NCBI GenBank assembly: GCA_002686705.1
Contig: NYYH01000033.1
Coordinates: 1 to 21,908, forward strand
Origin: Bacteroidota bacterium
GTDB lineage: Bacteria; Bacteroidota; Bacteroidia; Bacteroidales; F082
Reading direction: 5' to 3'
Length of the DNA: 21,908 bases
Shown: positions 2,293 through 21,898 of the stretch, one piece after another
Layout of the letters: the number at the start of each line of letters is the position of its first letter
Position numbering within the stretch: the stretch's first letter is position 1
Notes under the pieces: generated by a model
What the model was told of the DNA's origin: nothing
The model's input: only the letters and a program-made list of their open reading frames with translations
The model's database searches: none
Program-made: the position numbers and the translations under genes

Positions 2293-5200
2293 TTAATTTT
2301 TCACAACCATCTTCTGTATGAAGTCATTACCGTTATCAGTCAAAATAACCAGATAGATTCCATCTTTAAGTTTACCTGTATTAACAAATGAAACTCCTGA
2401 TTTTGATACCTGAATACGATTATTTTGATAAACCGGCAAACCGGTCAGATCAATAATCTTTAGTTCAAAATATCCGTTTTCGATATTATCTGTTTTAACA
2501 TAAAATTTACCATTATTTGGATTTGGATAAATTCCTAACTCAAAATAATTCTGTTCCTTAATTCCTGTGCAATTCACAAATTCCACAAGAATTTCATCAT
2601 ATCCAGCACAACCCGATGAGTCAATGGTTTCTACAAAAATATATTGTACACCATATCCTTTATCTATTGTGTCAATAATAATTGTTTGAGTTGTGCCGCC
2701 GGTCGACCATAGGTATTCTATACTAGCATTTCCGGCATCTAGTACCCAAGTTGTAGAACCACAAAGGCTTGTATCGGGGCCAAGGTTCACTTCTGGTGCA
2801 GGAAGCACATTAACATAAACAGAATCAATTGAAAAATGTTCACCATCAGAAACTTCTACTATGTACCATGTTGATACAAAAGGGATGGAAATAGGTCTTG
2901 CCTTATCTGAAGTAAATCCTTCAGGGTTCGAAGTCCATACAAATAATAATGTGTCGAATATACCTGGAACCTGAGCTGTTAAGTGAATAAACTGACCTGG
3001 ACACACTTCATTAAAATCAACGAAAGCATTAACAGCAATATGAACTGTTTTAAGCGTTATGGGTACTTCAGTTATACTGTTCAAGGGATCATTAGAGGAA
3101 ATAACTGCAGTTGTTGAATAAGTATCTTCAGGTAAATTTTCTGCATTGAAATTAACAGCTACAAAATTTGTATCTCCGGGAAATACTAAACCGCTTAAAG
3201 GATAAATATCCAGCCATCCTTGAACAACTACCGTATAATCCTCAACCTCTCCAAAGGTAGTAGTTCCGCATGGATTTAGTTCTCCGGTATATGTTATTCG
3301 AATCCTCATCTTGGTTATACCACTAATAGCTCCTGGGAGAGGTGATATTGTACCTGTGAATTTGTCAGTACCAGGTATACTTTGCATCAATGTTTGTTCA
3401 TCATTATCAAATATCTCATTTCCGTTCCAGTCGATCCATACGCCGCATTGGTCTAAGTCAAAGGGTTCCCCGTTGGTAACAATAATATCATAAGTATCAC
3501 CAACTGTAAATGTTGTTGATAGTTCGGAATAGTCAGTATAGTTATCACTTCCGGTATTTATGTTGAAGATATCACCAACTTCAACACCGCTTATATATTC
3601 ATTTCCTTGTCCACCGCCTCCTGATGCGGAACAATAACTATTTGCTTTTGAGGATGATAAAAGACTTATGCTGTATTCTAGATCAAGTTGGCCCGTATTA
3701 ATTATTGAGATTTCATTTTCTGATTGGGTTCCAATTACAAGCGTGTCATAGATACTGTCAGGGGCAACCGATATTATCACATCTCCCCATTGTAAAGATA
3801 TCCCGGAAGCTCCTGATTCAATATTATCTATGTAATATGCCGTTACACGATAAGTAAAAAGACCATATTGTGGAAGTAAATCTGAATAAGTTGTATCAGT
3901 TGTAGAGGCTATAGAATCACCATCCCTGTAAATAATAAATTTCAAAAAACCTGCTACTTCTTCGTATGACCATGTGAGGATTGTAATTCCTGTTTCAAAT
4001 TCAATTTCACCACTAAGAGAGGTAGGTCTATTTACGGGATTTGTTTCATAAGGAGAACAAAATGACATTGCATATCCTAATCGGTTATCCGTCCAAATAG
4101 GGTAAACCATACCATTTTTTGCATGTATTCCAAGGTAATCACCCATGTATTTGTCAACCAAACCAGGTATAGGTGCCGGTGTAAAGCTCACATCACTCAC
4201 TTTAAATTCTTCCCACGATGACCCTCCATCAACAGAGTTTGCACAATAAACTTCACATTGAGCAGTATCCACATTTCGATCATCATAGTATATCATGCTT
4301 AGTATTCCGTTAGTCGGATCACAGGTTATCCAGGAAAAAAAATGTTGTTTACCAAGTCCTGCCTCATCACTATTTACTTTAAGAGGATTGCTCCATGTTC
4401 CTCCCTTATCAGATGACTTAATAACATAGATGTCGATATCATTGCCTGTATTTATTCCAGGTGTACCAATATTAGCCCAGGTAATATATATCGCTCCATT
4501 ATCTGCTCCGTTACTATTGTCAACCGTTGCAACGGGAAATGAATTTACTCTCATGTTTTTACTTGTTCCTGACGCTCTAATACCTCTTATATTTGTTATT
4601 ATCCTTTGAGCTGGTTCCCATGAAACGCCACCATCAAGCGAGGTAGCCATCCCGATAGCTGATTCATCACTTCCACCAGAGGGCCAGCTATCATAGATAG
4701 CCCAAACTGCATAAATCTCACCATTTGGTCCGGTACTTAAATTAACGCCCTGATTATGACTTCCTGCGTTAACATCAGAACTGATATCGCTATTAACAGT
4801 CCAGGTATTTCCATTATCAGTTGAATAACTAAAACCTATTTCTGCATCGTACAGCCCTCCAGCATTCGTCCAGGCAACATATAAGTTACCCTCATAAGGG
4901 CTTGAAGAACTATTGTCAATCCACATATGATTTTTATCAGTAATTATCCCTGGATTTGGTGCAGCTTGTTTTACTGTCCATGTGGATCCTTGATCGTCAG
5001 AATACGATACTCCCATACCCCCGCTGTTATTAATAAAATTTACATACCATCGCCCATTTAGTCCTATAGTAGCTGCAGGATCACCTCCATTATCGGTGCC
5101 TGCTCCTTCAATATCCCCTTCCCAGATTTCACCCGAAGTAAATGAATAGAGTGCATTTGCACCATAGGCAGTATCTACATTGCTGTTAGTAGAATTATTT

Positions 5201-5538
5201 GAGTTTAATAAGTTGGTCTCATCAAGAGGGTTGACAAACACTGAATTTTCGCTTTGGGTTGAACCAATTTCAGTAACAGGAACATCAGGAGAATCGATAG
5301 TAATAACTGAATAGGCCTTAATATTACTTCCAGTAAATATTGCAGATTGAACCTCAATATCAGGATTATAATCAACCAGGCCTTTTTTTGCTGCCTGGCG
5401 CCAGTAACCCTGATTGTCAATTCTTGTATCTACTCCATCGCTAAATTTAATTCTCTTACTAATTGCCCAATTTGTGCCAAATCCAAAGGCAAGTAAGAGT
5501 AGAATAGTTATTATTACTTTAATTATTTTCATGTCCAT
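2293..5538 (-). CDS. T9SS-exported Asp-box (sialidase-like) propeller protein with GEVED and PKD-like modules, paralog A
   Basis: Numbered from ATG 5538, the product has 1081 residues. MKIIK at 5532 is equally plausible; the longer frame to 5598 adds a non-signal-like N terminus. An N-terminal hydrophobic export signal covers 5-22. The motif TRIDNQGYW (38-46) is shared with paralog B. Residues about 95-500 form a BNR/sialidase-like propeller with five Asp boxes (SxDxGxxW) near 180, 239, 300, 375 and 435. An FnIII-like domain (503-585), a GEVED domain (about 632-772, ending GEVEDYTVVV) and Ig/PKD-like modules (775-990) follow. Residues 1000-1081 are a type A sorting domain starting YPNPNNGKF. 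No sialidase RIP motif is evident, so glycosidase activity should not be assumed. The role is likely cell-surface or secreted binding. A terminator separates it from paralog B, so it probably has its own promoter. Confidence 0.85.
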   Translation of the reverse strand: MDMKIIKVIITILLLLAFGFGTNWAISKRIKFSDGVDTRIDNQGYWRQAAKKGLVDYNPDIEVQSAIFTGSNIKAYSVITIDSPDVPVTEIGSTQSENSVFVNPLDETNLLNSNNSTNSNVDTAYGANALYSFTSGEIWEGDIEGAGTDNGGDPAATIGLNGRWYVNFINNSGGMGVSYSDDQGSTWTVKQAAPNPGIITDKNHMWIDNSSSSPYEGNLYVAWTNAGGLYDAEIGFSYSTDNGNTWTVNSDISSDVNAGSHNQGVNLSTGPNGEIYAVWAIYDSWPSGGSDESAIGMATSLDGGVSWEPAQRIITNIRGIRASGTSKNMRVNSFPVATVDNSNGADNGAIYITWANIGTPGINTGNDIDIYVIKSSDKGGTWSNPLKVNSDEAGLGKQHFFSWITCDPTNGILSMIYYDDRNVDTAQCEVYCANSVDGGSSWEEFKVSDVSFTPAPIPGLVDKYMGDYLGIHAKNGMVYPIWTDNRLGYAMSFCSPYETNPVNRPTSLSGEIEFETGITILTWSYEEVAGFLKFIIYRDGDSIASTTDTTYSDLLPQYGLFTYRVTAYYIDNIESGASGISLQWGDVIISVAPDSIYDTLVIGTQSENEISIINTGQLDLEYSISLLSSSKANSYCSASGGGGQGNEYISGVEVGDIFNINTGSDNYTDYSELSTTFTVGDTYDIIVTNGEPFDLDQCGVWIDWNGNEIFDNDEQTLMQSIPGTDKFTGTISPLPGAISGITKMRIRITYTGELNPCGTTTFGEVEDYTVVVQGWLDIYPLSGLVFPGDTNFVAVNFNAENLPEDTYSTTAVISSNDPLNSITEVPITLKTVHIAVNAFVDFNEVCPGQFIHLTAQVPGIFDTLLFVWTSNPEGFTSDKARPISIPFVSTWYIVEVSDGEHFSIDSVYVNVLPAPEVNLGPDTSLCGSTTWVLDAGNASIEYLWSTGGTTQTIIIDTIDKGYGVQYIFVETIDSSGCAGYDEILVEFVNCTGIKEQNYFELGIYPNPNNGKFYVKTDNIENGYFELKIIDLTGLPVYQNNRIQVSKSGVSFVNTGKLKDGIYLVILTDNGNDFIQKMVVKN

Positions 5539-5614
5539 ATCCGAAATCAATCGCAAATTAGTAATATATTGATAATAATGCCTTGGTAAAAGTTGCATAT
5601 GAAGTAGGAAAAAT

Positions 5615-5667: not shown

Positions 5668-8600
5668 TTATTTCCTCAACACAATCTTCCTTGTGGTTGA
5701 AACACCTTCATTGGTTACAATAATTGTATAATTACCATCTGAATAGTTACTTAAATCGACTTTTTCGATATGTGTTCCGGATACAACAATGTTATTAAGA
5801 TTATAGATTATAGATCCTGCAACATTTATGACTTTGATATTAACAGGATTGTTAGTCTCACTATTAATTTCAATATTAAATATACCTTGGGCAGGATTAG
5901 GATAGACTCTCAATTCAATCGAAGCCTGCTCATCAATACCTGTACAATTAACAAACTCTATAGAAATATCCCCACTATTAACACAGTCAAATTCTGTTGT
6001 AACTTCAACGGAATAGTTATGTACTCCATAACCAATCCCAAGTGTATCAGCAGTGATAGTTTGAGAAGTAAGGCCATTAGACCAAAGATATGTTGAACCA
6101 GGATTTCCTGCATCAAGAGTAATGCTAACATCACCACAAACCGCAGTATCAGCTCCAAGATTAACCTCAGGAATACTAGCAAAATTTAAATAAACAGTAT
6201 CATTTGAGGAACAGCCATCAGTATTTGTAACTTCTACCCAGAACATAGTTACTCCTGATCCAGTTGCTACAATAGTTTGTGAAATTGCGCCCGTTGACCA
6301 TAGATATGTATCTCCAGGATTCCCAGCGTCGAGGTCGTGATGAGTTTCATCACAAAGTATCTGATCTCCACCAAGATCAACAATAGGCAAAGGATAGACT
6401 GTAACTGACACTGATGCATCCAAAGTTATAAGACCATCATTAACTGATACAAAATACTCAGTATTTTCTGTAGGAATAACAGTAGGATCAGACACATCAG
6501 AAGTAAATCCCTCAGGGACTGATGTCCAGGAATAAGTATAGCTTCCACTACCACCTGTAGGGATTGCCTCTAACTGTGAACTTTCGCCAAAACAAATACC
6601 ATCAGGATCGGCAGATGCCGAAAGTTGCATATTTGTTATGTACAAAGTAAACGAGACCGGATATGAAGCATTATTCAGATCATTTGTAATAAACTCTACT
6701 TCGTCTTCATAAGTTCCGATGTCCATATCAGTTCCATCGAAAGTAACGGTAACCATCAGTGAATCTCCGGGTGCTATAATACCTTCATCTGGATCGAGTG
6801 TAAGCCAGTCAGCTATTATCAGTGTGTAATCTTCAACCTCACCATATTCAGTGCTACCATAAGCATTAAGTCTACCAGTACCACCTAAACGAATCCGCAT
6901 ACGCGTAGAACCCTGTACACTTCCCTTTGGTGCAACAATAGTTCCTTTGAAAAAACCAAATTCTTTATCATCATTAAGCACTATTGCAGCCTCATCAAAA
7001 ATACCATTTTGATCCCAGTCAACCCAAACTTTACATTGATCACCTTTATAAGGGTTATTGCAAAGCACCTCAATTGGATAAAACTGTGAAGTTTTAATGT
7101 TGGCATACATACTGGTGAAATCGTTGTAACTGTCAAAACCTGATGTATTGTACAAGTTGCCAACAGAAACCATATGAATGTACTCATCTCCGCCACCTCC
7201 AGCAATTTCATAATAGGGTTTAACGGTATTCTTAAAGAAAGGGGATAATGAAAAGTCAAGATCAAGCACTCCTGTGTTTTTGATTTTCATCATCTGCACA
7301 TCAGTTTCTTCTGGATATATTACAGACATATAGCTAATTGGAATAATTTCAATAGTAGATGAACCATATTGAGTCTCAGAAGTTGTTCCACTTGATTCAA
7401 CATTACCACTGTAAACAGCAGTAACTTTATATGTATAATAGCCATAATCGGTTATTTGATCTGTAAAAGTTTCTTCGGTTGCGGTACCAACAAGAACATC
7501 ATTCCGATACACGTTGAAATGCATAAAGCCTGTTGTGCCACTAAAACTCCAATCTAATATACATTCCCCAGTTTCCTGGTTCGTTGCTGTATTAAGACCG
7601 GTTGGAGCAATAATATCTATAGTTTCAAATACTGATACATATGTCATTGCAGGCCCCGCTCTGTTATCAGTCCATGTAGGATATACATAACCGTTAAGTG
7701 CAGTAATTCCAAGATAATCACCAAAATATCCACTTGCCAATCCTGGAATTGGTTGAGGAGTAAATGCAACATCACTAACTTGAAAATCTTCCCAGGTTTC
7801 ACCAGCTGTATTAGAAGTTGCAGCCCATGTTTCTGCCTGGTTGTTATTTGTATTTCTGTTATCGTAGAACACTACACTAAGAATACCATTTGAAGGATCA
7901 CACGTAATCCATGGCATATAATGCGCTTTACCCTGTCCAATTGGATCCTGATTTATACGAATTGGATCTGACCATATATCACCTCCATCCGTAGATTTTA
8001 TCATATAAACATCTCTATCACTACCTGTATTTACACCGGGAACGCCAATATTAGTCCAAACCACATAAATATTCCCATCGTTGGAACCACCACTAATATC
8101 AACAGTCATGACAGGAAAAGCAGCAACACGCATATTTTGAGGCACACCAGAATTTCGGATCCCTCTAATATTGCTAATTATTCTAGTAGAAGCTTCCCAT
8201 GTTTCTCCTCCATCAAACGACTTAGCAAATCCAATTGCGGTCTCATCCGAAGGCCAATTATCATAAATGCACCATGCAGCATAAGCTTCTCCATTGGGAC
8301 CAGTGTGAACATTTACTCCTTGATTATGACTTCCTGCATTAACAGCCAAGCTAATTACTTTTCTGTCAGACCAGGTTTCGCCATTATCGTTTGAATACTT
8401 TAGAACTATTTCCCCATCGGAAGAACCACCAAAGTCAGTCCAGGCATCATACAAATTGTTCTCGTAGGGGCTACCTACCTTGCGATCGAGCCACAAATGG
8501 TTTTTATCGCACATCTGTCCAGGATTAGGAGTCACTTGAACATGAGTCCATGTTTGCCCTTGGTCATCAGAATGTGCCACGCCTTGTCCACTACTTTTTA

Positions 8601-9108
8601 TATAACCAACATACCATCTGCCATCAGTTCCAATACATGCAGCGGGATCACCACTGTTGTTTCCTCCTGCACCAGCAGTTTCACCATCAAATGTTTCTCC
8701 TCCATCAAACGTATACAGGTCATTGGCACCATATATTGGTGTTCCACCGGCCCCCCCTGAATTATTTGAATTTAAAGCTGTCATACTGTTGTTAGGATCA
8801 ACAATAATAGAATTCTCACTTTGGGTTGAATTTGTTGAGACAGCAACATCAGGTGAGTTAAGTGTTGCTACCATAGGATTATTAATTGCTGAGCCTGTGA
8901 AAATAGCTTTTGGTATTTCAACGACAGGATTTAGTACAGTAAGGCCTTCTTTAGCCATCTGTTTCCAATAACCCTGATTGTCAATCCGGGTATCTAATTT
9001 AGCCCTTCGTTCACGTTCAGTATCTGAAGAATCACTAACCGCCCATCCAATTGTGGTAATGATAATCCCAGTTACCATAAATAAAAATAATAATCTAAAT
9101 CTCTTCAT
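5668..9108 (-). CDS. T9SS-exported Asp-box (sialidase-like) propeller protein with GEVED and PKD-like modules, paralog B
   Basis: The 1146-residue protein is collinear with its downstream neighbour. It has a signal/anchor segment (5-23), the shared motif TRIDNQGYWKQMAKEGL (40-56), and a propeller with four good Asp boxes near 180, 239, 297 and 371 plus a degenerate fifth (NTAGETW, about 433). FnIII-like (500-585) and GEVED (about 632-765, GEVEDY at 756-761) domains follow. A PKD-like module (828-906) and two tandem repeats of about 70 residues, each with LDAGNPGxTYLWSxG (908-976 and 980-1052), come next. The last 80 residues are a type A T9SS sorting domain (VYPNPAQG to KIVLRK). The extra tandem repeat explains most of the length difference from paralog A. 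Motifs such as NAGSHNQGV, NIRGIR, PIPGL and WTDNR are common to both. The ligand or substrate is unknown. Confidence 0.85.
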   Translation of the reverse strand: MKRFRLLFLFMVTGIIITTIGWAVSDSSDTERERRAKLDTRIDNQGYWKQMAKEGLTVLNPVVEIPKAIFTGSAINNPMVATLNSPDVAVSTNSTQSENSIIVDPNNSMTALNSNNSGGAGGTPIYGANDLYTFDGGETFDGETAGAGGNNSGDPAACIGTDGRWYVGYIKSSGQGVAHSDDQGQTWTHVQVTPNPGQMCDKNHLWLDRKVGSPYENNLYDAWTDFGGSSDGEIVLKYSNDNGETWSDRKVISLAVNAGSHNQGVNVHTGPNGEAYAAWCIYDNWPSDETAIGFAKSFDGGETWEASTRIISNIRGIRNSGVPQNMRVAAFPVMTVDISGGSNDGNIYVVWTNIGVPGVNTGSDRDVYMIKSTDGGDIWSDPIRINQDPIGQGKAHYMPWITCDPSNGILSVVFYDNRNTNNNQAETWAATSNTAGETWEDFQVSDVAFTPQPIPGLASGYFGDYLGITALNGYVYPTWTDNRAGPAMTYVSVFETIDIIAPTGLNTATNQETGECILDWSFSGTTGFMHFNVYRNDVLVGTATEETFTDQITDYGYYTYKVTAVYSGNVESSGTTSETQYGSSTIEIIPISYMSVIYPEETDVQMMKIKNTGVLDLDFSLSPFFKNTVKPYYEIAGGGGDEYIHMVSVGNLYNTSGFDSYNDFTSMYANIKTSQFYPIEVLCNNPYKGDQCKVWVDWDQNGIFDEAAIVLNDDKEFGFFKGTIVAPKGSVQGSTRMRIRLGGTGRLNAYGSTEYGEVEDYTLIIADWLTLDPDEGIIAPGDSLMVTVTFDGTDMDIGTYEDEVEFITNDLNNASYPVSFTLYITNMQLSASADPDGICFGESSQLEAIPTGGSGSYTYSWTSVPEGFTSDVSDPTVIPTENTEYFVSVNDGLITLDASVSVTVYPLPIVDLGGDQILCDETHHDLDAGNPGDTYLWSTGAISQTIVATGSGVTMFWVEVTNTDGCSSNDTVYLNFASIPEVNLGADTAVCGDVSITLDAGNPGSTYLWSNGLTSQTITADTLGIGYGVHNYSVEVTTEFDCVNSGDISIEFVNCTGIDEQASIELRVYPNPAQGIFNIEINSETNNPVNIKVINVAGSIIYNLNNIVVSGTHIEKVDLSNYSDGNYTIIVTNEGVSTTRKIVLRK

Positions 9109-9222: not shown

Positions 9223-9253
9223 CAAAAGTAATTCAAAAATATTTACTTGTAAA
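9223..9253 (-). promoter_or_regulatory. Probable promoter of paralog B
   Basis: On the minus strand TACTTTTG (plus-strand 9223-9230) fits the -7 consensus TAnnTTTG. TTTA at 9250-9253 lies 19 bases further upstream as a near-match -33 element. It overlaps the 3' end of buk (stop at 9243) and would give a leader of about 105 bases before the ATG at 9108. The leader holds a small palindrome, TGCCAAATTTATGGCA (9208-9223). Confidence 0.4.
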
Positions 9254-10319
9254 TTTTTACTTCAGCATCACCAGTAATAATTCTAAGACCATTCATCGCT
9301 AACGCTTTCATTTCGTCTTCTCCGGGATACACATGAACCGGTGCCATTCGATGAACATAAGAAATAACTTGATTAACAAAATACTTATCATGAGCTATTC
9401 CTCCTGTAATTAATATGCCATCCACTTCTGAATGGAGTACTGCAACCATTGATCCAATCTCTTTAGCAACCTGATAAGCCATGCCATCATAGATATACTT
9501 TGCTTCTTTATTACCAGCTTCTACTCGATTTTCAACTTCGTAGGCACTATTGGTTCCAAGATATGCAACCAAGCCACCTTCATTACTTATCATCTTTAGC
9601 ATTTGTTTTTGAGAGTATTCACCTTTAAAACAAAGCCTTACAAGATCACCTACAGGAAGAGTCCCTGTCCTTTCTGGTGAATAAGGACCATCACCATCCA
9701 GACCCTGGTTAACATCAACTACTCGGCCCTTTTTATGAGCTCCTACAGTTATTCCACCTCCAAGATGTACCACAATAAGGTTTAGATCTTCATATTTTCT
9801 CATGATGGATTTAGAGTGTTGGCGGGCCACTGCTTTTTGATTTAACGCATGGAAAATAGATTTTCTTGGAAGTAGAGGATGACCGGATAACCGTGCAAGA
9901 TCGCTGAGTTCGTCCACAACTACAGGATTACTAATATATGCGTTGGCATCTGGCAACGACTTAGCCAAATCATAGGCGATTAGTCCACCAAGGTTACTAG
10001 CATGTTCGCCATAAGTACAAGATTCAAGATCAAGAATCATTTTTTCATTTACAGCAATAATTCCAGACTCAACAGGCTTTAGTAAACCTCCGCGCCCCAT
10101 TACAACCTTAATTTGTTTTAAAGAAATTTCTGCAACTTCGAGTTCGTGAATTATAAGTTCTTTACGAAAATTAAACTGTTCAGTAATCAATTCAAATTGA
10201 GCAAGTTCTTCAATAGTGTGACGAATGATTTGAATAAAGACCGGGTTTGTATCAGCATACACAGCAATTTTAGTGGATGTTGATCCAGGATTTATTGCCA
10301 AAATATATACGGTCGCCAT
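9243..10319 (-). CDS. buk: Butyrate kinase
   Basis: This acetate/propionate/butyrate kinase (ASKHA fold) phosphorylates ADP from butyryl-phosphate, releasing butyrate; branched short-chain acyl phosphates are also used by family members. The 358 residues equal the usual family length. Visible motifs are the N-terminal phosphate-binding loop INPGSTSTKIAVY (9-21), VMGRGGLL (73-80), the second phosphate loop VVHLGGGITVGAH (183-195), DGDGPYSPERTGTLP (208-222) and the adenosine-site motif GILITGGIAH (301-310). It follows ptb with a 38-base gap on the same strand, so the two form an operon that converts acyl-CoA to acid with ATP formation in the cytoplasm. No obvious terminator follows; the promoter of the next gene overlaps its end. 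Confidence 0.93.
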   Translation of the reverse strand: MATVYILAINPGSTSTKIAVYADTNPVFIQIIRHTIEELAQFELITEQFNFRKELIIHELEVAEISLKQIKVVMGRGGLLKPVESGIIAVNEKMILDLESCTYGEHASNLGGLIAYDLAKSLPDANAYISNPVVVDELSDLARLSGHPLLPRKSIFHALNQKAVARQHSKSIMRKYEDLNLIVVHLGGGITVGAHKKGRVVDVNQGLDGDGPYSPERTGTLPVGDLVRLCFKGEYSQKQMLKMISNEGGLVAYLGTNSAYEVENRVEAGNKEAKYIYDGMAYQVAKEIGSMVAVLHSEVDGILITGGIAHDKYFVNQVISYVHRMAPVHVYPGEDEMKALAMNGLRIITGDAEVKIYK

Positions 10320-10357
10320 TAATTGGATTTATTTAGATCGTAAAATTTAAAATAACT

Positions 10358-11254
10358 TTAAGTTATAGCGGCAGCAAGAGCAATTGATAAAAATTTACTC
10401 TTGTCACTATCACCTCTTGATGTAAGTACTATTGGAACTTTTGCCCCCATTATAACTGCTGCGGAAGATGCCCCACCAAGAAAATTTAAAGATTTGTATA
10501 ATATATTTCCACCATTAATGTCGGGAGCTAGTATCAGATCGGCATCACCTGCAACATCACTTGTAATGTTTTTCAATAGTGCTGTCTCCTGTGAAATTGC
10601 TCCGTCGAGGGCAAGTGGGCCATCAATTATGCAACCCACAATTTGCTTTCGATAATTCATCATTGAGATAGTTGCAGCATGCATTGTGGCTTCCATCTTT
10701 GGATTAATGGTTTCAACTGAACCCAGTATGGCCACTTTAGGGTTTTTATTGCCAAGCCCGTGAAAAACTGCAACCGCATTTTTAATGATATCTATTTTTT
10801 CTTCCAGATCTGGATCTACATTCATAGCTGCGTCAGTAACTCCTAAAAGCTTGTGGTAATATGGTGTTTCGAATAACGCAATATGGCTCAACAGAGAACC
10901 TGTACGTAGGCCAAATTCTTTATTTAGCACAGCTTTTAGAAATAATCCGGAGCTTACAAGCCCTTTCATAATTATTTCAGCTTTTCCTTCACCCGTTAAT
11001 TTAGATGCTATTAAAGAAGCTTCATATGCGTCGACAGCGTCAATTACTTCAATATTTTTGATGTCAAAATCAATCTCGTTAGCAATTTTATCGATAACAA
11101 TTTTGTCGCCAACAAGTATTGGTTCAATAATTCCTTCTGAATAGGCCTTTGCAATAGCCTTTAATACGTGATAGTCACCCGCAGCCGCAACTGCAATGTG
11201 TCTTTTTATCTTATTTTTTGCAAGATCTACAAGGGAAGAAAGATGTTTAATCAT
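10358..11254 (-). CDS. ptb: Phosphate butyryltransferase
   Basis: The 298-residue protein has the length and pattern of phosphate acetyl/butyryl transferases (PTA_PTB family). The N-terminal half includes HIAVAAAGDYHVLKAIAKA (19-37) and EIIMKGLVSSGLFLKAVL (about 93-110). The C-terminal half carries the conserved DGPLALDGAIS and LILAPDINGGNILYKSL (about 240-256), followed by a GAKVPIVLTSRGDSDKSK-type ending. It transfers the acyl group of butyryl-CoA, and probably isobutyryl- or isovaleryl-CoA, to phosphate, and hands acyl-phosphate to the kinase encoded 38 bases downstream. It is divergent from the tyrosine phosphatase gene across 154 bases. A -7-like TAATTTTG on the minus strand (11328-11335) lacks an obvious -33 partner. 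Confidence 0.92.
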   Translation of the reverse strand: MIKHLSSLVDLAKNKIKRHIAVAAAGDYHVLKAIAKAYSEGIIEPILVGDKIVIDKIANEIDFDIKNIEVIDAVDAYEASLIASKLTGEGKAEIIMKGLVSSGLFLKAVLNKEFGLRTGSLLSHIALFETPYYHKLLGVTDAAMNVDPDLEEKIDIIKNAVAVFHGLGNKNPKVAILGSVETINPKMEATMHAATISMMNYRKQIVGCIIDGPLALDGAISQETALLKNITSDVAGDADLILAPDINGGNILYKSLNFLGGASSAAVIMGAKVPIVLTSRGDSDKSKFLSIALAAAIT

Positions 11255-15064: not shown

Positions 15065-17995
15065 TTATTTTATTTTAGCTATCTTTCTTCTTAAATCGCC
15101 TTTGTTAGTGCTAATTTCATAGATATAGAATCCGGCAGGTAAATTTTTTCCAAAATTACTTCTTCCATTCCATATAGTTGAATGCTGTCCACTTGGTAAG
15201 TGGTTGTTGATCAATGTGCTAACAACTGTACCGCTGAGATTATAAATTCGTAATGTAACGAAAGATTCTTGATCGAGTCTGAAAGAGATTGTTGTTTGAT
15301 CAGAAAATGGATTTGGATAATTTGTTGATAACTGTTCATTCCCCAAATCGACCATTTCATCAATACCTACACCAAGTCCAATACCTCCAGAATAACAATA
15401 TACTCTGCCGTTTCTTCCTCCAATTACCATCTCCATAGTACCATCTCCAACTATATCAGGAATAGCATTAATTGCATCAACAGGAGTTGAATAATTAAAA
15501 GATTCAAGATCCTCACCGTCAACTCCATTTAAGAAATAACCATAATTATTTGAAAATAATGTTCCAATTATAACATCGTTAATCCCGTCACCGGTTATAT
15601 CATCAATTGGTGCCACATTCCACGATTTATCAGCAAGAGGTAGCGACCAAATAGTTGACGCATCAAATCCATCCAGAACAATACCATTTTGAGCACTATG
15701 CGCAATAAGAACATCAGCATATCCGTCAGAATTAACATCCTTAAGTCGTTCGAAGCGAAGAATTAATTTATAAGCACCAATACTTCCCTGATAAATTTGA
15801 GCATTGTTAACCGGATTTATGTAGTAATAATTTCCATAAAAATCTCCTGCTATTACATCTTTAACTCCATCTCCGGTAATGTCATCTAATTGCATCAATG
15901 CCCAGACTGATGATCCTGCAGTATTTTTTGTCCATTCAATAGTTCCTGTTGAACCATTAATTCCATAAACTCTTCCTTCTGTTTCATCGGCATTAGAAGC
16001 ACCTGCAATAACGTCAGGTTTACTATCGCCTGTAAAATCTTCTACACCAATTACTGAAAATACTGGTCCTCCAATATATCTTTCCCAAATTGATATGCCA
16101 TCCAAACCGTTTAAACAATAAACTCTTAACGGGCCAGTATCTTCACTATCGTCACCGGTACATGCCAATACATCATTAATGCCATCATCGTTATAATCGT
16201 AGCTTGCATCAACTGCATAAACCCAGCCACCATTACCATATTCATGAGTATCATGTTTCCAAATCTGTGTACCGGTTTTTCCAGAAATAGCAATTATTGA
16301 ACGATCTCCACCGGTAGTAGCTACAACAACATCTTCGTAACCATCGCCATTAATATCTTCAATAGTAGTCAATCCGGGTTGATCATAAACGTTACCTGAA
16401 TAAATTTCAAATTCCCACATTACATCAGCTATGTTATGAGAATTTCCATTAAAACACCTCACGAAATTATCTTCGGAACAAATGATGACATCGCCAACGG
16501 TATCGCCAGTAATATCCTGGATAGGGGCAATCGCCTTTGGGCTATTATCATAACTTGTGTTTATAAGATAGGTCCATAGAGCATCTCCAATAGGCCAAGT
16601 TTTTTCCAGTCCCTCTCCATCAAGATTAATATTGTAGGGATTATTTGCCGGATCATTATTGGTGATTGTAAGTTCTCCTACATAAGGCCCTGCTTTTATT
16701 GGATTAAACCAAACTCCAACCAAAGTTGAATTCAAAGGCGCAATATTTATAGGAAAAGTAACAGATTCATCAATAATATAGTTCTCAGAGTTAGAAATGA
16801 TATCACTTACTATGAGAGTAGCATCACCAATATTTTCAATCTCAAGAAACCACCTTGTAAATGCACCTGCACGCACATCACCATAATTATGCGAGCTATA
16901 GGGAATATACATTGATGGACCAGAGTTTACAGCTTCACCTGTTAAAGTAACATCAACTGAAGGTGTAATAGGATCCGTTGACTCAACTGATACAGTTACA
17001 TTTAAAGATCCCACAGTTGTTGGTGTATATGTTAATGGAATCATAATTGAATTTCCGGGATTTATGATTTGCGGTGGGCTAAAAGTAGAGGAGATAGGTG
17101 CTGAACCGGGAATTGTTAAACCAGTTATTTCAAGATCATCATCTCCAACATTTTCCACTTCCATATTCCAAGTTTCATTAGTTCCAATAGTAACAGTTCC
17201 GAAATTATGAGAAGTAATTGGAATATTTATTTCTGGCGTTCCTGAGCCGGAAAGATTGACTTTATATAATTTACTAGGAGAAGAAAGTTGTCCGTCAACA
17301 TACCAAAGATAGGTATCGTCATATACAATACCAGCTGGTTTAATATTTTCACAAGCATGACTTTCCAGTACATTTCCAGATTGGTCAGTTTTGTAAATCA
17401 TATTTGCATTATAATCAACCATCCACAAGTCATCTCCGTGAGTGCAGATATCCCATATTTGATCAGCGGGAGGAGTAAACTGGCTTATAACCGCACCTGT
17501 ATTGTCAACTTTGTAAATAGTTCCGGGATCAGGGTAATATGTGCCAACCCAAAAATCACCATCATCATATGCTATTCCACTCATGTAATGGTCGGGAAGA
17601 TTAAATGTTGAGAGAATAGTTCCTGATAGATTCAGTTCTATTGCTGTTGCTGGTGTAGAAGGAGTAGTGACGTGATCAGTAATCCAAAGTTCTGATCCAT
17701 CCCATGTCATACCAAAGCAATCACCTATGGCTGGGTTTATAAACTGTATCTGCGTTGAACCATCAGATGGATCGAATCTATAAAAATGATCACCATCAGC
17801 ACCGTAAATACCGAAATATAAATATGTTCCATCCCAAGCTAATCCAGAGGCTTTGCCAGGTATATCCCAAGATTGTAAAATTGTCCACTCCTGTACTTCT
17901 CTATTTAAATCTGAATCTTTTTGTGAGAATGTTGTGCTGAACATTCCAAATAACACAAAAAGAATTATTGTTATTTTTTTCATTTTACTTTTCAT
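15065..17995 (-). CDS. T9SS-exported surface protein with choice-of-anchor-D-like domains and eight FG-GAP-like repeats
   Basis: The 976-residue protein has a signal peptide (about 5-23, cleavage near TFS|Q). Residues 40-250 look like a propeller of repeated GLAWDGTYLY / GMTWDGSELW / GIAYDDGDFW / GIVYDDTYLW units. Two choice-of-anchor-D (ASH)-like Ig domains follow (255-353 and 361-462), with HNFGTV and HNYGDV starts. Residues 470-870 hold eight calcium-loop repeats of the type DxxGDGxxDV, near 494, 547, 600, 653, 705, 753, 799 and 847, alternating with PQQ-like W strands as in FG-GAP/integrin-alpha propellers. Residues 890-976 are a type A T9SS sorting domain (NYPNPFSDQT to KIAKIK). It lies 45 bases after the deiminase stop on the same strand, so the two are probably co-transcribed. 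The role is likely adhesion or binding at the surface; no catalytic motif was seen. Confidence 0.85.
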   Translation of the reverse strand: MKSKMKKITIILFVLFGMFSTTFSQKDSDLNREVQEWTILQSWDIPGKASGLAWDGTYLYFGIYGADGDHFYRFDPSDGSTQIQFINPAIGDCFGMTWDGSELWITDHVTTPSTPATAIELNLSGTILSTFNLPDHYMSGIAYDDGDFWVGTYYPDPGTIYKVDNTGAVISQFTPPADQIWDICTHGDDLWMVDYNANMIYKTDQSGNVLESHACENIKPAGIVYDDTYLWYVDGQLSSPSKLYKVNLSGSGTPEINIPITSHNFGTVTIGTNETWNMEVENVGDDDLEITGLTIPGSAPISSTFSPPQIINPGNSIMIPLTYTPTTVGSLNVTVSVESTDPITPSVDVTLTGEAVNSGPSMYIPYSSHNYGDVRAGAFTRWFLEIENIGDATLIVSDIISNSENYIIDESVTFPINIAPLNSTLVGVWFNPIKAGPYVGELTITNNDPANNPYNINLDGEGLEKTWPIGDALWTYLINTSYDNSPKAIAPIQDITGDTVGDVIICSEDNFVRCFNGNSHNIADVMWEFEIYSGNVYDQPGLTTIEDINGDGYEDVVVATTGGDRSIIAISGKTGTQIWKHDTHEYGNGGWVYAVDASYDYNDDGINDVLACTGDDSEDTGPLRVYCLNGLDGISIWERYIGGPVFSVIGVEDFTGDSKPDVIAGASNADETEGRVYGINGSTGTIEWTKNTAGSSVWALMQLDDITGDGVKDVIAGDFYGNYYYINPVNNAQIYQGSIGAYKLILRFERLKDVNSDGYADVLIAHSAQNGIVLDGFDASTIWSLPLADKSWNVAPIDDITGDGINDVIIGTLFSNNYGYFLNGVDGEDLESFNYSTPVDAINAIPDIVGDGTMEMVIGGRNGRVYCYSGGIGLGVGIDEMVDLGNEQLSTNYPNPFSDQTTISFRLDQESFVTLRIYNLSGTVVSTLINNHLPSGQHSTIWNGRSNFGKNLPAGFYIYEISTNKGDLRRKIAKIK

Positions 17996-18040: not shown

Positions 18041-20071
18041 TTATTCAATCCGTATCAGTTTTCCGCTTCTAGTAGTATTTCCACTTGTTATTCTGTAGAA
18101 GTATAATCCCGGTTTCAGCTCCGCTTTTACTTCTCCAATATTTATAGTGATATGATTTTCATTACTACTAATTAAATGCTTCAATTTGTCCAGTATTAAT
18201 CTACCGTTATAATCAAATATTTGAATCGCTACTTCATTACTTTCAGAATTCCTGATAATGAAATTAAGCTGGTTAGTAAACGGATTCGGATAAGCGGAAA
18301 TATGCACTTCAGTTAATGTAACATCATCAATTTCAGAAAGAAGATCACCATCTATCATTATTGGTTCAGCATATATATCCAAATCAGTTTCAATTAACAT
18401 TGTATCAATTACTAGTTCGCCAAATTTAGAAACGGGGAGATCGCAAAGTATATTCAAATTAAGAGTGTCGTCTTCGGAAAGCACATAAGGCAAGTCTGGC
18501 ATTTCTTCAACATACCACATAAATTCGTCACCATATTCAGTAATTGAATTAATAGTAACTATGTCTGATGTTAAATTAGTAATATGTAAAGGGATACCAT
18601 ATATCATATCTTCCGTAGTTTCAAATAATACAGTATCTGGGTTAAATGCAAGTTCAGTTTGTGGGAAATAAACATTTTTAAATACAAATGGATCAGGCTC
18701 ACCAATAAATGGTTGTTTTGCATTTCTTCCTGACTCATCCGCTGCAAATAAATAATAGGAAACAGTATCGCTTGGCATTACACCCTCAATAGTGCCTGTG
18801 TATGTTACATCGCTAACATATTCCATAACTGTTGATGTATAATTGCCACTATTTATTTTATAATAAATAAGTACAGAATCGGCATAAATATTTGATCCGC
18901 TTGCCGCCGTAATATCTGCTGAAATATCATATTCAGGATGATATGCAACAGTTCCAAGAGTTGGCATATGATCAATATAAAGCATGCCAATGTCAGCAAT
19001 ACCCTTTGCTCTGCAATGTAATGCATCAGTATTTTCCCATCCATTATACATAATGCCTATAATTTCATAACCCGGCATAGCTTCTTCGTAAGCTGCAAGA
19101 GCATCGTTATCATATGGGCCTCCGGTAATTGGTACTAGTACCTTATTGTTTAGTATTAAAGAGTTAGTGTATGGTGTATATGGATAATCACCTGGAGTAA
19201 AAACGCGATAAACTTCAAAAGGTGTTCCATAGGAACTTGTTTGAGATGCAAAGTAATCTGCCAAATCCTCATAATCCTGATAACGATTATCGGTAGTTGG
19301 AACCTGACCGAGCAATATTTTGTTAGGAGATAGGTATTTGCTCCAACAATCAATGTGTTTAATGTACTCTCCTAATGGATCATCAAGTACGTCATAAATT
19401 GGATTCCCAAGATAGTCGTTGATGAATCCCGAAACTTCTTCATGAGTAAGCGTAGGGTTTTCATCCCATACTAAATCCGTGGATGCTGAAAGCCCCTTGC
19501 CTGTGCACATGTAGTTTCCTCCAGTGCTTATTAAGTCCATTCCATATAGATCAATATCAAGATATTCTGACATTCTTATCGGAACATCATCATCATTTGG
19601 GCGAGGTCTATTGTAAGGAAAATTGACAATTCCGGGTTGATTATTCCCATCGAAAACAAACCATGGTCCGTAATCTCTTGTCCAATAACTATTGGTTGGG
19701 GCTATTAAAAAGTCACAATTTTCAAGATTTACATTATTATTTTGGTATTGCGTTGTAACGGTTTGCTGTTGAGAAGCATTGGCAACAAGCGTAACAACCA
19801 TAATATCCTCCGCCATTTCTCTTATTAACTCCATAGGAATACCAAATGGATATCTAATCAGAACTCCTTGCATTTGGTCAAATTCTGCCACATTTCTGAT
19901 AATCCCTTCAGGAGGATCCGTTGGATAAAAAGTCTTTGATTTTGTAAATGGAGTAAGCATTTCCTCTTCAGATAAGTAATGGAGCTTACGCCAATCGGGT
20001 TGTGTTTGTCCTATTATCACATTACCAAAAAATAATGCGATGATTGTTATAGTTAGTACTTTCACTTTCAT
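18041..20071 (-). CDS. PPAD-like peptidylarginine deiminase with Ig-like domain and T9SS tail
   Basis: The family converts guanidino groups to ureido groups (arginine to citrulline, or agmatine) through a cysteine nucleophile. The 676-residue protein has a signal peptide (1-21), the deiminase domain (about 48-370), an Ig-like domain (about 380-465), a further beta-rich domain (470-585) and a type A sorting domain (590-676, YPNPFTNQ). The active site reads [10 protein letters not shown] (W130, D133), YNRPRPND (R155, R157), HIDCW (H239, D241), YTNSL (N303) and LHCRAKG (C353). In P. gingivalis PPAD, as I recall, the equivalents are W127, D130, R152, R154, H236, D238, N297 and C351, a near-constant offset. 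R152/R154 bind the C-terminal carboxylate of peptide substrates, so a peptide deiminase is favoured over agmatine deiminase. It should act outside the cell. Promoter at 20113-20147. Confidence 0.88.
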
Positions 20072-20112: not shown

Positions 20113-20147
20113 CAAAAGTATGAAGTTGTTGGTTGTTTTGCAACAAA
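20113..20147 (-). promoter_or_regulatory. Promoter of the deiminase gene
   Basis: On the minus strand TACTTTTG (plus 20113-20120) is a perfect TAnnTTTG -7 element. TTTG (plus 20144-20147) is a perfect -33 element, separated by 23 bases. The ATG at 20071 lies 41 bases downstream of the -7 element. Confidence 0.5.
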
Positions 20148-20181
20148 TTGTTCATACTAATATTTATTTACATTACTTTTG
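20147..20181 (+). promoter_or_regulatory. Promoter of tatA
   Basis: TACTTTTG at 20174-20181 is a perfect -7 element. ATTG (20147-20150) is a one-mismatch -33 element, also with a 23-base spacer. The ATG at 20207 follows after 25 bases. The element lies within the longer reading frame from 20120 and so rules against that upstream start. Confidence 0.5.
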
Positions 20182-20206
20182 TCATATAAACGAAAAAAAC
20201 AATAAA

Positions 20207-20449
20207 ATGGGATCTTTGGGAAATATAGCTATGATACAGTATACAGGATGGATTGGTACACCTGAAATTATAATTATTGTTGTTATTGTACTTCTTTTGT
20301 TTGGAGGGAAAAAGATTCCTGAGCTTATGCGAGGTGTAGGGAAAGGTATAAAAGAATTTAAAGGTGGTATTGCCGAAGATAGTGATAAAAAAGAAGGCTC
20401 TGATAAAAAAGAAGACAAGAATTCAGAAGAGACAAAAACTGATAAATAG
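20207..20449 (+). CDS. tatA: Twin-arginine translocase subunit TatA/TatE
   Basis: TatA multimers form the passage for folded proteins carrying twin-arginine signals, together with TatC in the inner membrane. From ATG 20207 the protein has 80 residues: a short N terminus, a membrane helix (about 19-32, ending LLLFGG), then the conserved hinge and amphipathic helix [21 protein letters not shown] (32-52) and a charged Lys/Asp/Glu tail. The start at 20207 gives the standard TatA length; the frame from ATG 20120 adds 29 residues with an extra hydrophobic stretch and overlaps the promoter. No tatC is in the window. An insertion sequence follows within about 100 bases and may have separated tatA from its former neighbour. 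Confidence 0.92.
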
Positions 20450-20569: not shown

Positions 20570-21898
20570 ATGAAAGGGAAATTACCAAACCAAGGTCAAA
20601 GAAACATGTTCCGGCCAGTACTAAAAGAGATTATTAATCCTAATCACGAACTTGTGATTTTATCTCAACAAATCGATTGGAATGAATTTGAAAACAGTTT
20701 CAGCCCTTTGTACTCTCACACTGGTCAGCCTGGAGTACCAATCCGTACTATAGTAGGACTGCTGTTATTAAAAAGGATTTATAACTTAGGTGATGAAACA
20801 GTTATGGAGCAGTGGCTTCAAAACCCTTACTACCAGTATTTTTGTGGAGAGTCTGAATTTCAGTGGGAATATCCCTGTGACCCATCAGACATGGTTCACT
20901 TCCGCAAACGTATAGGTGAAGAGGGTGCTGAAAAGATATTTCAATTATCGGTTCAAACAAGGAAAAAAGAGATAAGAACTAAAGATGTTCTCATAGATAC
21001 AACAGCACAAGAAAAGAATATTACTTATCCCACAGATGCTAAATTATTGATAAGGGTTATCCAGCAATGCAACAAGATTGCCAAATTGGAAAGCATCATT
21101 CAGCGCCAGACCTACAAGCGCACCATGAAAAAACTGTTACTTAAACAACGTTTTGCTCATCATCCCAAGCGAAAAAAAGAAGCAAATGCTGCATTGCGCA
21201 AATTAAGGACAATAGCAGGCAGGCTTGTACGGGAACTTGAGAGGACCTTAAACGAAGAAGCTCTAAAACAACATACTGAGCAACTTATAAATTTAAATAA
21301 AGTAGTATCTCAAAAGAGATTGGACAAGAACAAAATCTATAGTTTACATGAACCATCTACCTCTTGTATTGCAAAGGGCAAAGTACACAAGAAATTTGAG
21401 TTTGGATCAAAAGTATCATTTGCTGTTGTGCCTAGAGTAAATATAATTGTTGGAGTGAAGAACTTTAACGGCAACCCAAATGATACATCTACTTTACAAC
21501 CAGCCCTTGACAATGTTGAAAAGATTAGTGGTATTAAATTTAAGAACGCCATTGTTGACAGGGGTTACAAAGGAAAGAAAGAAGTAAATGGTACTACAAT
21601 AGTCACGCCACGGCCACCAAATGCCAAACAGCCTTATTCTAAATCAACTATGCGAAAAGAATGTAGAACAAGAGCCGCTGTTGAACCAGTAATTGGACAT
21701 GTAAAACATGATTGCCGTATGGCGAGAAATTACCTTAAAGGCACTATTGGTAATGACATCAATGCAAATCTTGCAGCAGCAGGGTTCAATTTTAGAGGAC
21801 TGCTCAAGAAAATCAAAGAAGAAATTCTTTGGGCAATTTTTTATATCAAAAACATTATTGAATCAAATGGACAAAACCTTAGCTTTGCTTGTTCATAA
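20570..21898 (+). CDS. IS5-family-like DDE transposase
   Basis: The 442-residue protein has an N-terminal DUF772-type helical domain (about 20-125: FSPLYSHTGQPGVPIRTIVG, LQNPYYQYFCGESEFQW, DPSDMVHFRKRIG). An RNase H-like catalytic domain follows with the triad D143 (LIDTTAQEKN), D330 (AIVDRGYKG) and E372 (RAAVEPVIGHVKHD). A basic helical insertion of about 90 residues (160-250) lies between the first and second Asp. All three acidic residues are present and the frame is uninterrupted, so the enzyme looks active. The IS5-family assignment rests on this architecture and the E-helix motif; the subgroup was not determined. It lies directly downstream of tatA in the same direction. Confidence 0.9.
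   Translation: MKGKLPNQGQRNMFRPVLKEIINPNHELVILSQQIDWNEFENSFSPLYSHTGQPGVPIRTIVGLLLLKRIYNLGDETVMEQWLQNPYYQYFCGESEFQWEYPCDPSDMVHFRKRIGEEGAEKIFQLSVQTRKKEIRTKDVLIDTTAQEKNITYPTDAKLLIRVIQQCNKIAKLESIIQRQTYKRTMKKLLLKQRFAHHPKRKKEANAALRKLRTIAGRLVRELERTLNEEALKQHTEQLINLNKVVSQKRLDKNKIYSLHEPSTSCIAKGKVHKKFEFGSKVSFAVVPRVNIIVGVKNFNGNPNDTSTLQPALDNVEKISGIKFKNAIVDRGYKGKKEVNGTTIVTPRPPNAKQPYSKSTMRKECRTRAAVEPVIGHVKHDCRMARNYLKGTIGNDINANLAAAGFNFRGLLKKIKEEILWAIFYIKNIIESNGQNLSFACS

Follow-up and report, generated by a model that had tools for sequence, protein, structure and literature searches.

A PPAD-type exported peptidylarginine deiminase from an apparently uncultured Bacteroidota bacterium and the probable association of its family with arginine gingipains outside Porphyromonas

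A stretch of 21,908 nucleotides from a Bacteroidota bacterium (contig NYYH01000033.1 of assembly GCA_002686705.1), here called the window, carries on its minus strand at 18041-20071 an intact open reading frame (ORF) of 676 amino acids (aa). In our analysis, the encoded protein is very probably an orthologue of the peptidylarginine deiminase PPAD of Porphyromonas gingivalis, which an apparently uncultured Bacteroidota would export and use to deiminate C-terminal arginine ends, most likely those left by an RgpB-type gingipain of the same cell. The protein, with a predicted four-domain layout, is a fresh member of the known PPAD family, and what appears unusual is the setting, that is, a PPAD-type enzyme found beyond Porphyromonas and tied to arginine gingipains by co-occurrence, some linkage and fusion. 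In the passages of the PPAD literature cited here, the enzyme is presented as peculiar to Porphyromonas and is explained through its effects on people; it has been called 'uniquely among microbes' (PMC4487231) and 'unique to pathogenic Porphyromonas species' (PMC6147916), and a 2025 review names P. gulae and P. loveana as carriers of homologues (PMC12599369). No report of a gingipain-deiminase fusion or pair outside Porphyromonas was found in the open-licence literature, as covered by titles, the beginnings of abstracts and selected passages.

The window protein was found to match PPAD (4yt9) over residues 48-465 at E=5.5e-133. The alignment reference was P0121, a 556-aa PPAD cluster representative which is 99% identical to the crystallised chain; in the alignment, 162/308 positions (52.6%) of the catalytic domain and 46/102 (45.1%) of the Ig-like domain are identical. 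Eight PPAD residues had been named in a sequence-only reading of this DNA and all of them are present at the offsets then given (+3 six times, +6 and +2): W127, D130, R152, R154, H236, D238, N297 and C351 of PPAD correspond to W130, D133, R155, R157, H239, D241, N303 and C353, the two arginines lying in the clamp motif YNRPRPND. The lid residue, which that reading did not name, is also kept (Y233 as Y236), along with I234 (I237), G182 (G185), C239 (C242), T346 (T348) and D347 (D349); roles of the pocket residues in PPAD have been published (PMC4487231). In the structural model of the window protein a pentein catalytic domain is packed on an immunoglobulin superfamily (IgSF) domain as in PPAD, with a structural Z of 56 to PPAD and about 35 to agmatine deiminases, and both the alignment and the model place R155 and R157 at the substrate pocket. 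The sorting tail of the type IX secretion system (T9SS) scored 45.9 bits with TIGR04183 (cut-off 23) and 46.5 with PF18962 (cut-off 27). In trees built by a quick method with class B as outgroup, in which some forks fall below 90, PPAD, the window protein and the fusions described below stand on one branch with a support of 100, together with L105-L107. Hence every feature tested (core, clamp, pocket, fold, tail and tree) places the protein in the PPAD family, and the proposal of a PPAD-type enzyme with both carboxylate arginines and a T9SS tail came through every sequence and fold test, with export as a prediction. The pentein and IgSF fold, the catalytic residues, the R152/R154/Y233 clamp, C239, G182 and the T9SS-type tail are thus common to the window protein and P. 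gingivalis PPAD (4yt9, 4ytb, 4ytg, 5ak7, 6i0x), whereas PPAD is without the extra Ig-like domain of the window protein (472-576).

The same comparisons bear on two other possible activities. Agmatine deiminases (PF04371; 2jer, 3hvm, 6b10) share the pentein fold and the Asp/His/Asp/Asn/Cys core, several relatives among the matches listed are named 'agmatine deiminase family protein', and NCBIfam agmatine deiminase models do touch the window protein, although they reach only 50 bits against a cut-off of 483 and 47.9 bits against 381.8. Besides the lower structural Z, 3hvm and 6b10 have no arginine in the segment aligned to YNRPRPND, where the window protein has RPR, and no tyrosine at the lid position; the site of agmatine deiminases is described as closed and without an extra domain (PMC4487231). 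Pairing or fusion with arginine-specific proteases would make no sense for agmatine, and an exported agmatine deiminase using environmental agmatine is therefore highly improbable. The small deiminases L100 and L103 from relatives' genomes, taken as controls, keep the catalytic core and have lost the clamp; since they too fall below the agmatine deiminase cut-offs, they can be called only agmatine-deiminase-like. The arginine pair had been thought to set PPAD apart, which holds against agmatine deiminases but not against arginine deiminases and vertebrate PADs, which have it in common with PPAD (PMC4487231). An exported deiminase of free arginine, whose two arginines would hold the carboxylate, is accordingly favoured by this shared clamp, and PPAD is said in the 2025 review to be able to act on free L-arginine as well (PMC12599369). 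This reading is nevertheless very unlikely, because the binding of the preceding carbonyl by R154, whose counterpart R157 is present, is credited with the peptide preference of PPAD, and because the fold matches PPAD, where the site is open, in contrast to the closed site of arginine and agmatine deiminases (PMC4487231).

The family was found to extend far outside Porphyromonas. At least 5,322 proteins matched the window protein at E<=1e-20 (among 7,998 candidates scored) and at least 4,319 matched PPAD at E<=1e-30 (among 7,320 candidates). In genome contigs, 141 stretches encode relatives, and the 80 that were kept come from Bacteroidales, Lentimicrobiaceae, Cloacimonadota, Chlorobiota and Saprospiraceae metagenome-assembled genomes (MAGs) among others, with one Thermoplasmatota-labelled bin. 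The nearest named relatives of the window protein among the matches listed are Lentimicrobiaceae and unclassified Bacteroidetes MAGs and not Porphyromonas. Conservation was counted in 93 representatives of less than 72% identity (set A1, used rather than a 212-row set with duplicates, and reduced from 94 by leaving out P0123, a divergent paralogue near P. gingivalis PPAD): H236, D238, N297, C351 and R152 are each present in 93/93, R154 in 92/93 and Y233 in 79/93. An even sample of 395 genomes from the phylum of L002's genome gave a deiminase match at E<=1e-20 in 27 (up to 4 candidates scored per genome), two of these matches being weak and of agmatine-deiminase size. The 25 loci of the first search in this sample (3 candidates per genome) all have R152 and R154, with the lid tyrosine only in the centre genome; the complete PPAD type is thus not spread through the whole phylum. 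In the order of L002's genome, 61/149 sampled genomes match, 47 of them at E<=1e-90, and 112/124 genomes match at E<=1e-20 in the phylum to which the Cloacimonadota locus L056 belongs. By these counts, the predicted PPAD-type enzyme is frequent in one Bacteroidota order beyond Porphyromonas and in Cloacimonadota.

The additional domain which had been noted at 470-585, between the Ig-like domain and the sorting tail, is real; residues 472-576 of the model form an Ig-like fold, and PF22544 passes its cut-off on the homologue P0138 (residues 480-576), while on the window protein it does not rise above the cut-off. Among the 240 listed proteins, 227 have 640-760 aa and nine have 540-605 aa; the searches kept only proteins 0.55-1.75 times as long as the query, and the counts are bounded accordingly. 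Six of the nine short proteins (P0121-P0126) are P. gingivalis PPAD and the relatives listed nearest to it. In the trees, PPAD and the short forms lie beside or among long forms, the 677-aa P0129 joining them at 95, and the subfamily of the window protein is in a different clade. Since most listed members are long and the short forms are nested among them, the 'additional' domain is evidently the usual state and P. gingivalis PPAD a shortened form. As a separate observation, the residues of the 6i0x variant in the PPAD loop 231-235, which also occur in P0121 and P0122, are widespread among the 93 representatives (T232 in 50, D235 in 52, N231 in 17) and for this reason look like old states. The paralogues P0123, P0125 and P0126 share about 50% identity with the PPAD of P. 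gingivalis; they retain R152 but have proline for R154 and an altered lid (Y233 to F), which suggests a changed specificity. In the A2 members, a CBM_56 model is touched by 33/59 at E<=0.01, in the IgSF domain in the three that were located (P0053 394-440), and carbohydrate binding by this domain is weakly possible.

The surface-modification idea of the sequence-only reading, in which the enzyme would act on internal arginines and decorate surface proteins, fits the T9SS tail, and the scaffold could open, as 24/25 phylum-sample loci keep R152 and R154 without the lid tyrosine. The window protein, however, has the lid Y236 and I237; substrates with a C-terminal extension are kept out by the lid and R152 of PPAD, whose exo activity is nearly 5,500 times its endo activity (PMC4487231). 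Products of proteolysis are likelier substrates than surface proteins, because PPAD acts on free C-terminal arginine, and decoration of internal arginines is very unlikely. Animal and cyanobacterial PADs have the same chemistry and likewise place two arginines at the main chain of the substrate (PMC4487231); they differ in being Ca-dependent and acting on internal arginines, and the PPAD type is reported as phylogenetically distinct (PMC8826395). Twenty apparently exported deiminases of 29-33% identity (L109-L128) keep both clamp arginines and have Gly, Gln, Val, Glu or Pro at the lid position and Met for C239; a small residue at the lid position of human PADs is described as admitting internal arginines (PMC4487231), and these twenty may be internal-arginine deiminases. 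A catalytically dead binding protein is a reading with practically negligible probability, since all catalytic residues are present and are invariant across the 93 representatives, even though dead-looking deiminase-like paralogues do exist. These belong to a further family of about 550 aa (L081-L083, L085, L087, L088, L101; T9SS tail confirmed in L081 and L085), in which L085, L087, L088 and L101 look dead, the catalytic Cys and His having been replaced.

The link with gingipains was drawn from the relatives. At the Bacteroidales locus L054 (isolate name BS750m-G6) a protease gene lies about 280 bp downstream of the deiminase gene on the same strand, and its product has the gingipain architecture of propeptide, C25 domain and C25 Ig domain. 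It is identical to mature RgpB (1cvr) at 184/419 positions (E=1.6e-101) and shares the S1 pocket residues D163, V242, W284 and M288 and the H211/C244 dyad, with Gln at E152; the roles of these residues are given in PMC4357240 and PMC9559808. With the L054 protease domain as query, an RgpB-type match was found in 36/39 genomes with PPAD-type loci at E<=1e-40 and in 38 at 1e-20, counting the genome that supplied the query, and among them are all those of L001-L006, the nearest relatives of the window, at 61-64% identity. D163, H211, C244 and W284 are kept in 30/30 loci fetched from carrier genomes, so that D163 was checked in 30 of the 36, and in 34/34 loci fetched from the phylum and order samples. 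That no gingipain was seen nearby had been taken as a sign of different biology; it is true of the window only, and the relatives' genomes, which carry RgpB-type genes, show the opposite. At a second locus, L080, the deiminase gene is preceded, at a distance of about 50 bp, by an RgpB-type gene that the contig end truncates; what is left of it has 88/231 identical positions and does not include D163. The L080 contig carries both genes in a Thermoplasmatota bin without an SprA match and is probably mis-binned.

In the phylum sample, an RgpB-type match at E<=1e-40 was seen in 6/395 genomes, and four of these six also belong to the 27 genomes with a deiminase match (Fisher 2.4e-4, or 2.3e-3 when the centre genome is left out); up to 4 candidates per genome were scored here, so the rate may be low, and up to 11 in the order sample. 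In the latter, RgpB-type matches occur in 58/61 deiminase carriers versus 11/88 others (3.7e-26), and in 46/47 strong carriers versus 23/102 (6.3e-20). T9SS presence does not account for the co-occurrence, as the counts are still 58/61 versus 10/79 (6.2e-25) within the 140/149 genomes with SprA. In 5/47 strong carriers a single contig bears both genes no more than a few kilobases apart, where roughly 0.22 pairs would be expected if a 3.4-Mb genome has 1.35 RgpB-type genes (from 94 matches in 69 genomes). The two are direct neighbours in G543 (46 bp), G515 (164 bp) and G552 (394 bp apart) and have one gene between them in G557 and G440; both gene orders occur among the five pairs, and two pairs share one arrangement. 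Between the deiminase gene and a 205-aa gene, the related locus L004 and the window are collinear, and two RgpB-type copies stand in tandem in the genome of L004.

Several points weigh against the proposed function and partnership. No ORF of the window matched the C25 profile, and the protease is neither adjoining nor fused there. The C25 neighbours of the deiminase in L051, L056, L072 and L073 were ruled out as RgpB-type, being about 20-24% identical to RgpB with Phe at position 163; because these Cloacimonadota neighbours, which first raised the gingipain case, are not RgpB-type, the argument is carried by L054 and L080, by the genome samples and by the fusions. The co-occurrence statistics ignore kinship, and the two families may be no more than markers of protein-eating bacteria with T9SS. 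L014's genome, G006, has a PPAD-type gene and no RgpB-type match even at 1e-20, owing either to an incomplete MAG or to another arginine protease, and the deiminase carriers G563, G484 and G491 have no match at 1e-40. The remaining 42/47 strong carriers show no close linkage among the matches listed, and no PPAD-like ORF was found in the short flanks of 64 RgpB-type loci (L156-L219). Moreover, channel-lining positions in the subfamily of the window protein differ from PPAD (N235 to K238, R252 to G255, H258 to D261).

Besides the RgpB-type genes, distant C25 proteases adjoin the deiminase gene in L051, L056, L063, L072 and L073; position 163 is Phe wherever it is covered, in four of the five. 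Zinc carboxypeptidases of family M14 with T9SS-type tails were also observed near PPAD-type genes (L056:2-2053, L072:3-1808, L065:3100-5871; the tail in L072 is just below the Pfam cut-off) and suggest a wider peptide-processing set; P. gingivalis is reported to export the carboxypeptidase CPG70 (PMC11285876).

The closest association is seen in Cloacimonadota, where some deiminase matches of the genome sample lie inside open frames of 1,100-2,600 aa. In 21/27 regions, chosen mostly for long frames and representing 21 genomes, one ORF encodes an RgpB-type C25 domain near the N-terminus followed by a PPAD-type domain, so that, unlike RgpB, protease and deiminase can be one polypeptide; the gingipains of P. 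gingivalis are not known to be fused to a deiminase. Pfam confirmed Propeptide_C25, Peptidase_C25, Peptidase_C25_C and PAD_porph in four fusions, and found no T9SS type A tail in these four. The shortest of the 21 (L292, 1,128 aa) holds the two domains side by side on a 2.25-Mb contig, and mis-assembly is for this reason unlikely. A search among long proteins gave 201 at E<=1e-20, and 103 of the best 120 have both domains. In these 103 the protease residues (D163 101, H211 102, C244 102, W284 102) and the deiminase residues (R152, R154, H236, D238 and N297 103; C351 102) are nearly always present, with Y233 in 62, Ser in 31, Thr in 8 and Asn in 2 at the lid position. The C25 domain comes first in 124/124 fusions (103 + 21, sets which overlap: P0357 is L290, and P0242 is 99% identical to L285). 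Where databases name them, the entries read 'C25 family cysteine peptidase' or 'agmatine deiminase family protein', and the organisms given are Cloacimonadota. In the tree, L294 is separated from the main clade of fusions, a placement of weak support; the rows of the fusion tree (FUS) include L295, L302 and L309, long ORFs in which no C25 domain was found. A Cloacimonadota genus with a dockerin-bearing C25 peptidase has been reported, without mention of deiminases in the passages cited (PMC8542988).

From the homology, residues, fold and sorting tail observed in the window protein, and from the co-occurrence, linkage and fusion with RgpB-type proteases observed in its relatives, we infer the activity, the substrate, the cell-surface location, the order of action and a protease in the window's own genome. 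The protein would be exported by Sec and then by T9SS. An RgpB-type protease, fused, neighbouring or from the same cell, would cut and leave a free C-terminal arginine, and the window protein would carry out the second step, deimination, at the cell surface or in the medium. The guanidinium would be held by D133 and D241 and the substrate carboxylate by R155, R157 and the Y236 lid, with C353, H239 and N303 performing the chemistry to C-terminal citrulline and ammonia. The gain for the cell may, at a guess, lie in taking the charge off the cut ends, in shielding them from carboxypeptidases or competing with these enzymes, in ammonia or in a supply of citrulline. We further regard it as reasonably likely that arginine gingipain and PPAD form an old exported two-enzyme module of non-Porphyromonas Bacteroidota and Cloacimonadota, fused in the latter, with the window protein as a deiminase member and the rheumatoid-arthritis-linked pair of P. 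gingivalis as a late, shortened descendant. If an arginine protease with a C-terminal deiminase is indeed common in protein-degrading bacteria, its original job would be nutritional or biochemical rather than pathogenic, and the origin and purpose of PPAD would become testable questions. Bacteria far from the mouth would then make C-terminally citrullinated peptides, and 'agmatine deiminase' records would include misnamed PPADs. The natural fusions are direct test objects for the hand-over of cut ends from protease to deiminase.

The features are collected in Table 1; coordinates within the ORF were checked at nucleotide level. The sequence-only reading named no strand; frame 1 of the plus strand over 18041-20071 is full of stops, and no other ORF of at least 90 aa lies inside this interval.

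Table 1. Positions of the deiminase gene, its domains and key residues, neighbouring genes in the window, and named fusion loci
Feature	Coordinates	Strand	Basis
PPAD-type exported peptidylarginine deiminase (predicted), 676 aa	18041..20071	-	ORF, homology and domain matches
N-terminal hydrophobic stretch, residues 1-21, probable Sec signal peptide	20009..20071	-	by eye; model helix 2-20
Five-fold pentein catalytic domain, residues 48-362	18986..19930	-	homology, alignment, model
W130-x-x-D133 (PPAD W127, D130)	19673..19684	-	alignment
R155-P-R157, putative clamp for substrate C-terminal carboxylate (PPAD R152, R154)	19601..19609	-	alignment; roles from passages of PMC4487231
Michaelis loop YIKHIDC: Y236 lid, H239, D241, C242 (PPAD Y233, H236, D238, C239)	19346..19366	-	alignment
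N303 (PPAD N297)	19163..19165	-	alignment
Catalytic C353 (PPAD C351)	19013..19015	-	alignment
PPAD-type Ig-like (IgSF) domain, residues 363-467	18671..18985	-	alignment, model
Additional ASH/HYDIN-like Ig domain, residues 472-576	18344..18658	-	model; PF22544 on homologue
T9SS type A sorting domain, residues 594-673	18053..18292	-	domain models
Next gene: 976-aa protein, ASH, FG-GAP and T9SS sorting domains	15065..17995	-	45 bp downstream of deiminase
Divergent TatA-like neighbour, not part of the system	20120..20449	+	neighbour annotation
Protease-deiminase fusion loci named (17 more loci)	L292:5789-9172; L285:5086-11379; L290:7029-13577; L289:3107-8839	-; -; -; +

The pair formed by the deiminase gene and the gene of the 976-aa protein is kept in L002-L005. 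Among the 80 relatives, a lytic-transglycosylase-like gene (by eye) of two kinds lies upstream in 19 and 22 loci, and mostly downstream are the gene of a 423-aa protein (25 loci) and lysS (24 loci). One end of the window, past the TatA-like gene, carries a transposase (DUF772/DDE_Tnp_1; 20570-21898, plus strand); in spite of it, an origin in a mobile element is not favoured, as the deiminase gene stands in recurring neighbourhoods among the 80 relatives. Side by side on the minus strand (2293-5598 and 5668-9108) are genes for related T9SS-tailed proteins of 1,101 and 1,146 aa with BNR repeats and GEVED domains, and similar proteins flank PPAD-type loci elsewhere. A butyrate kinase above cut-off and a phosphotransbutyrylase-like gene (9243-11254, minus strand) suggest an anaerobe fermenting through acyl phosphates.
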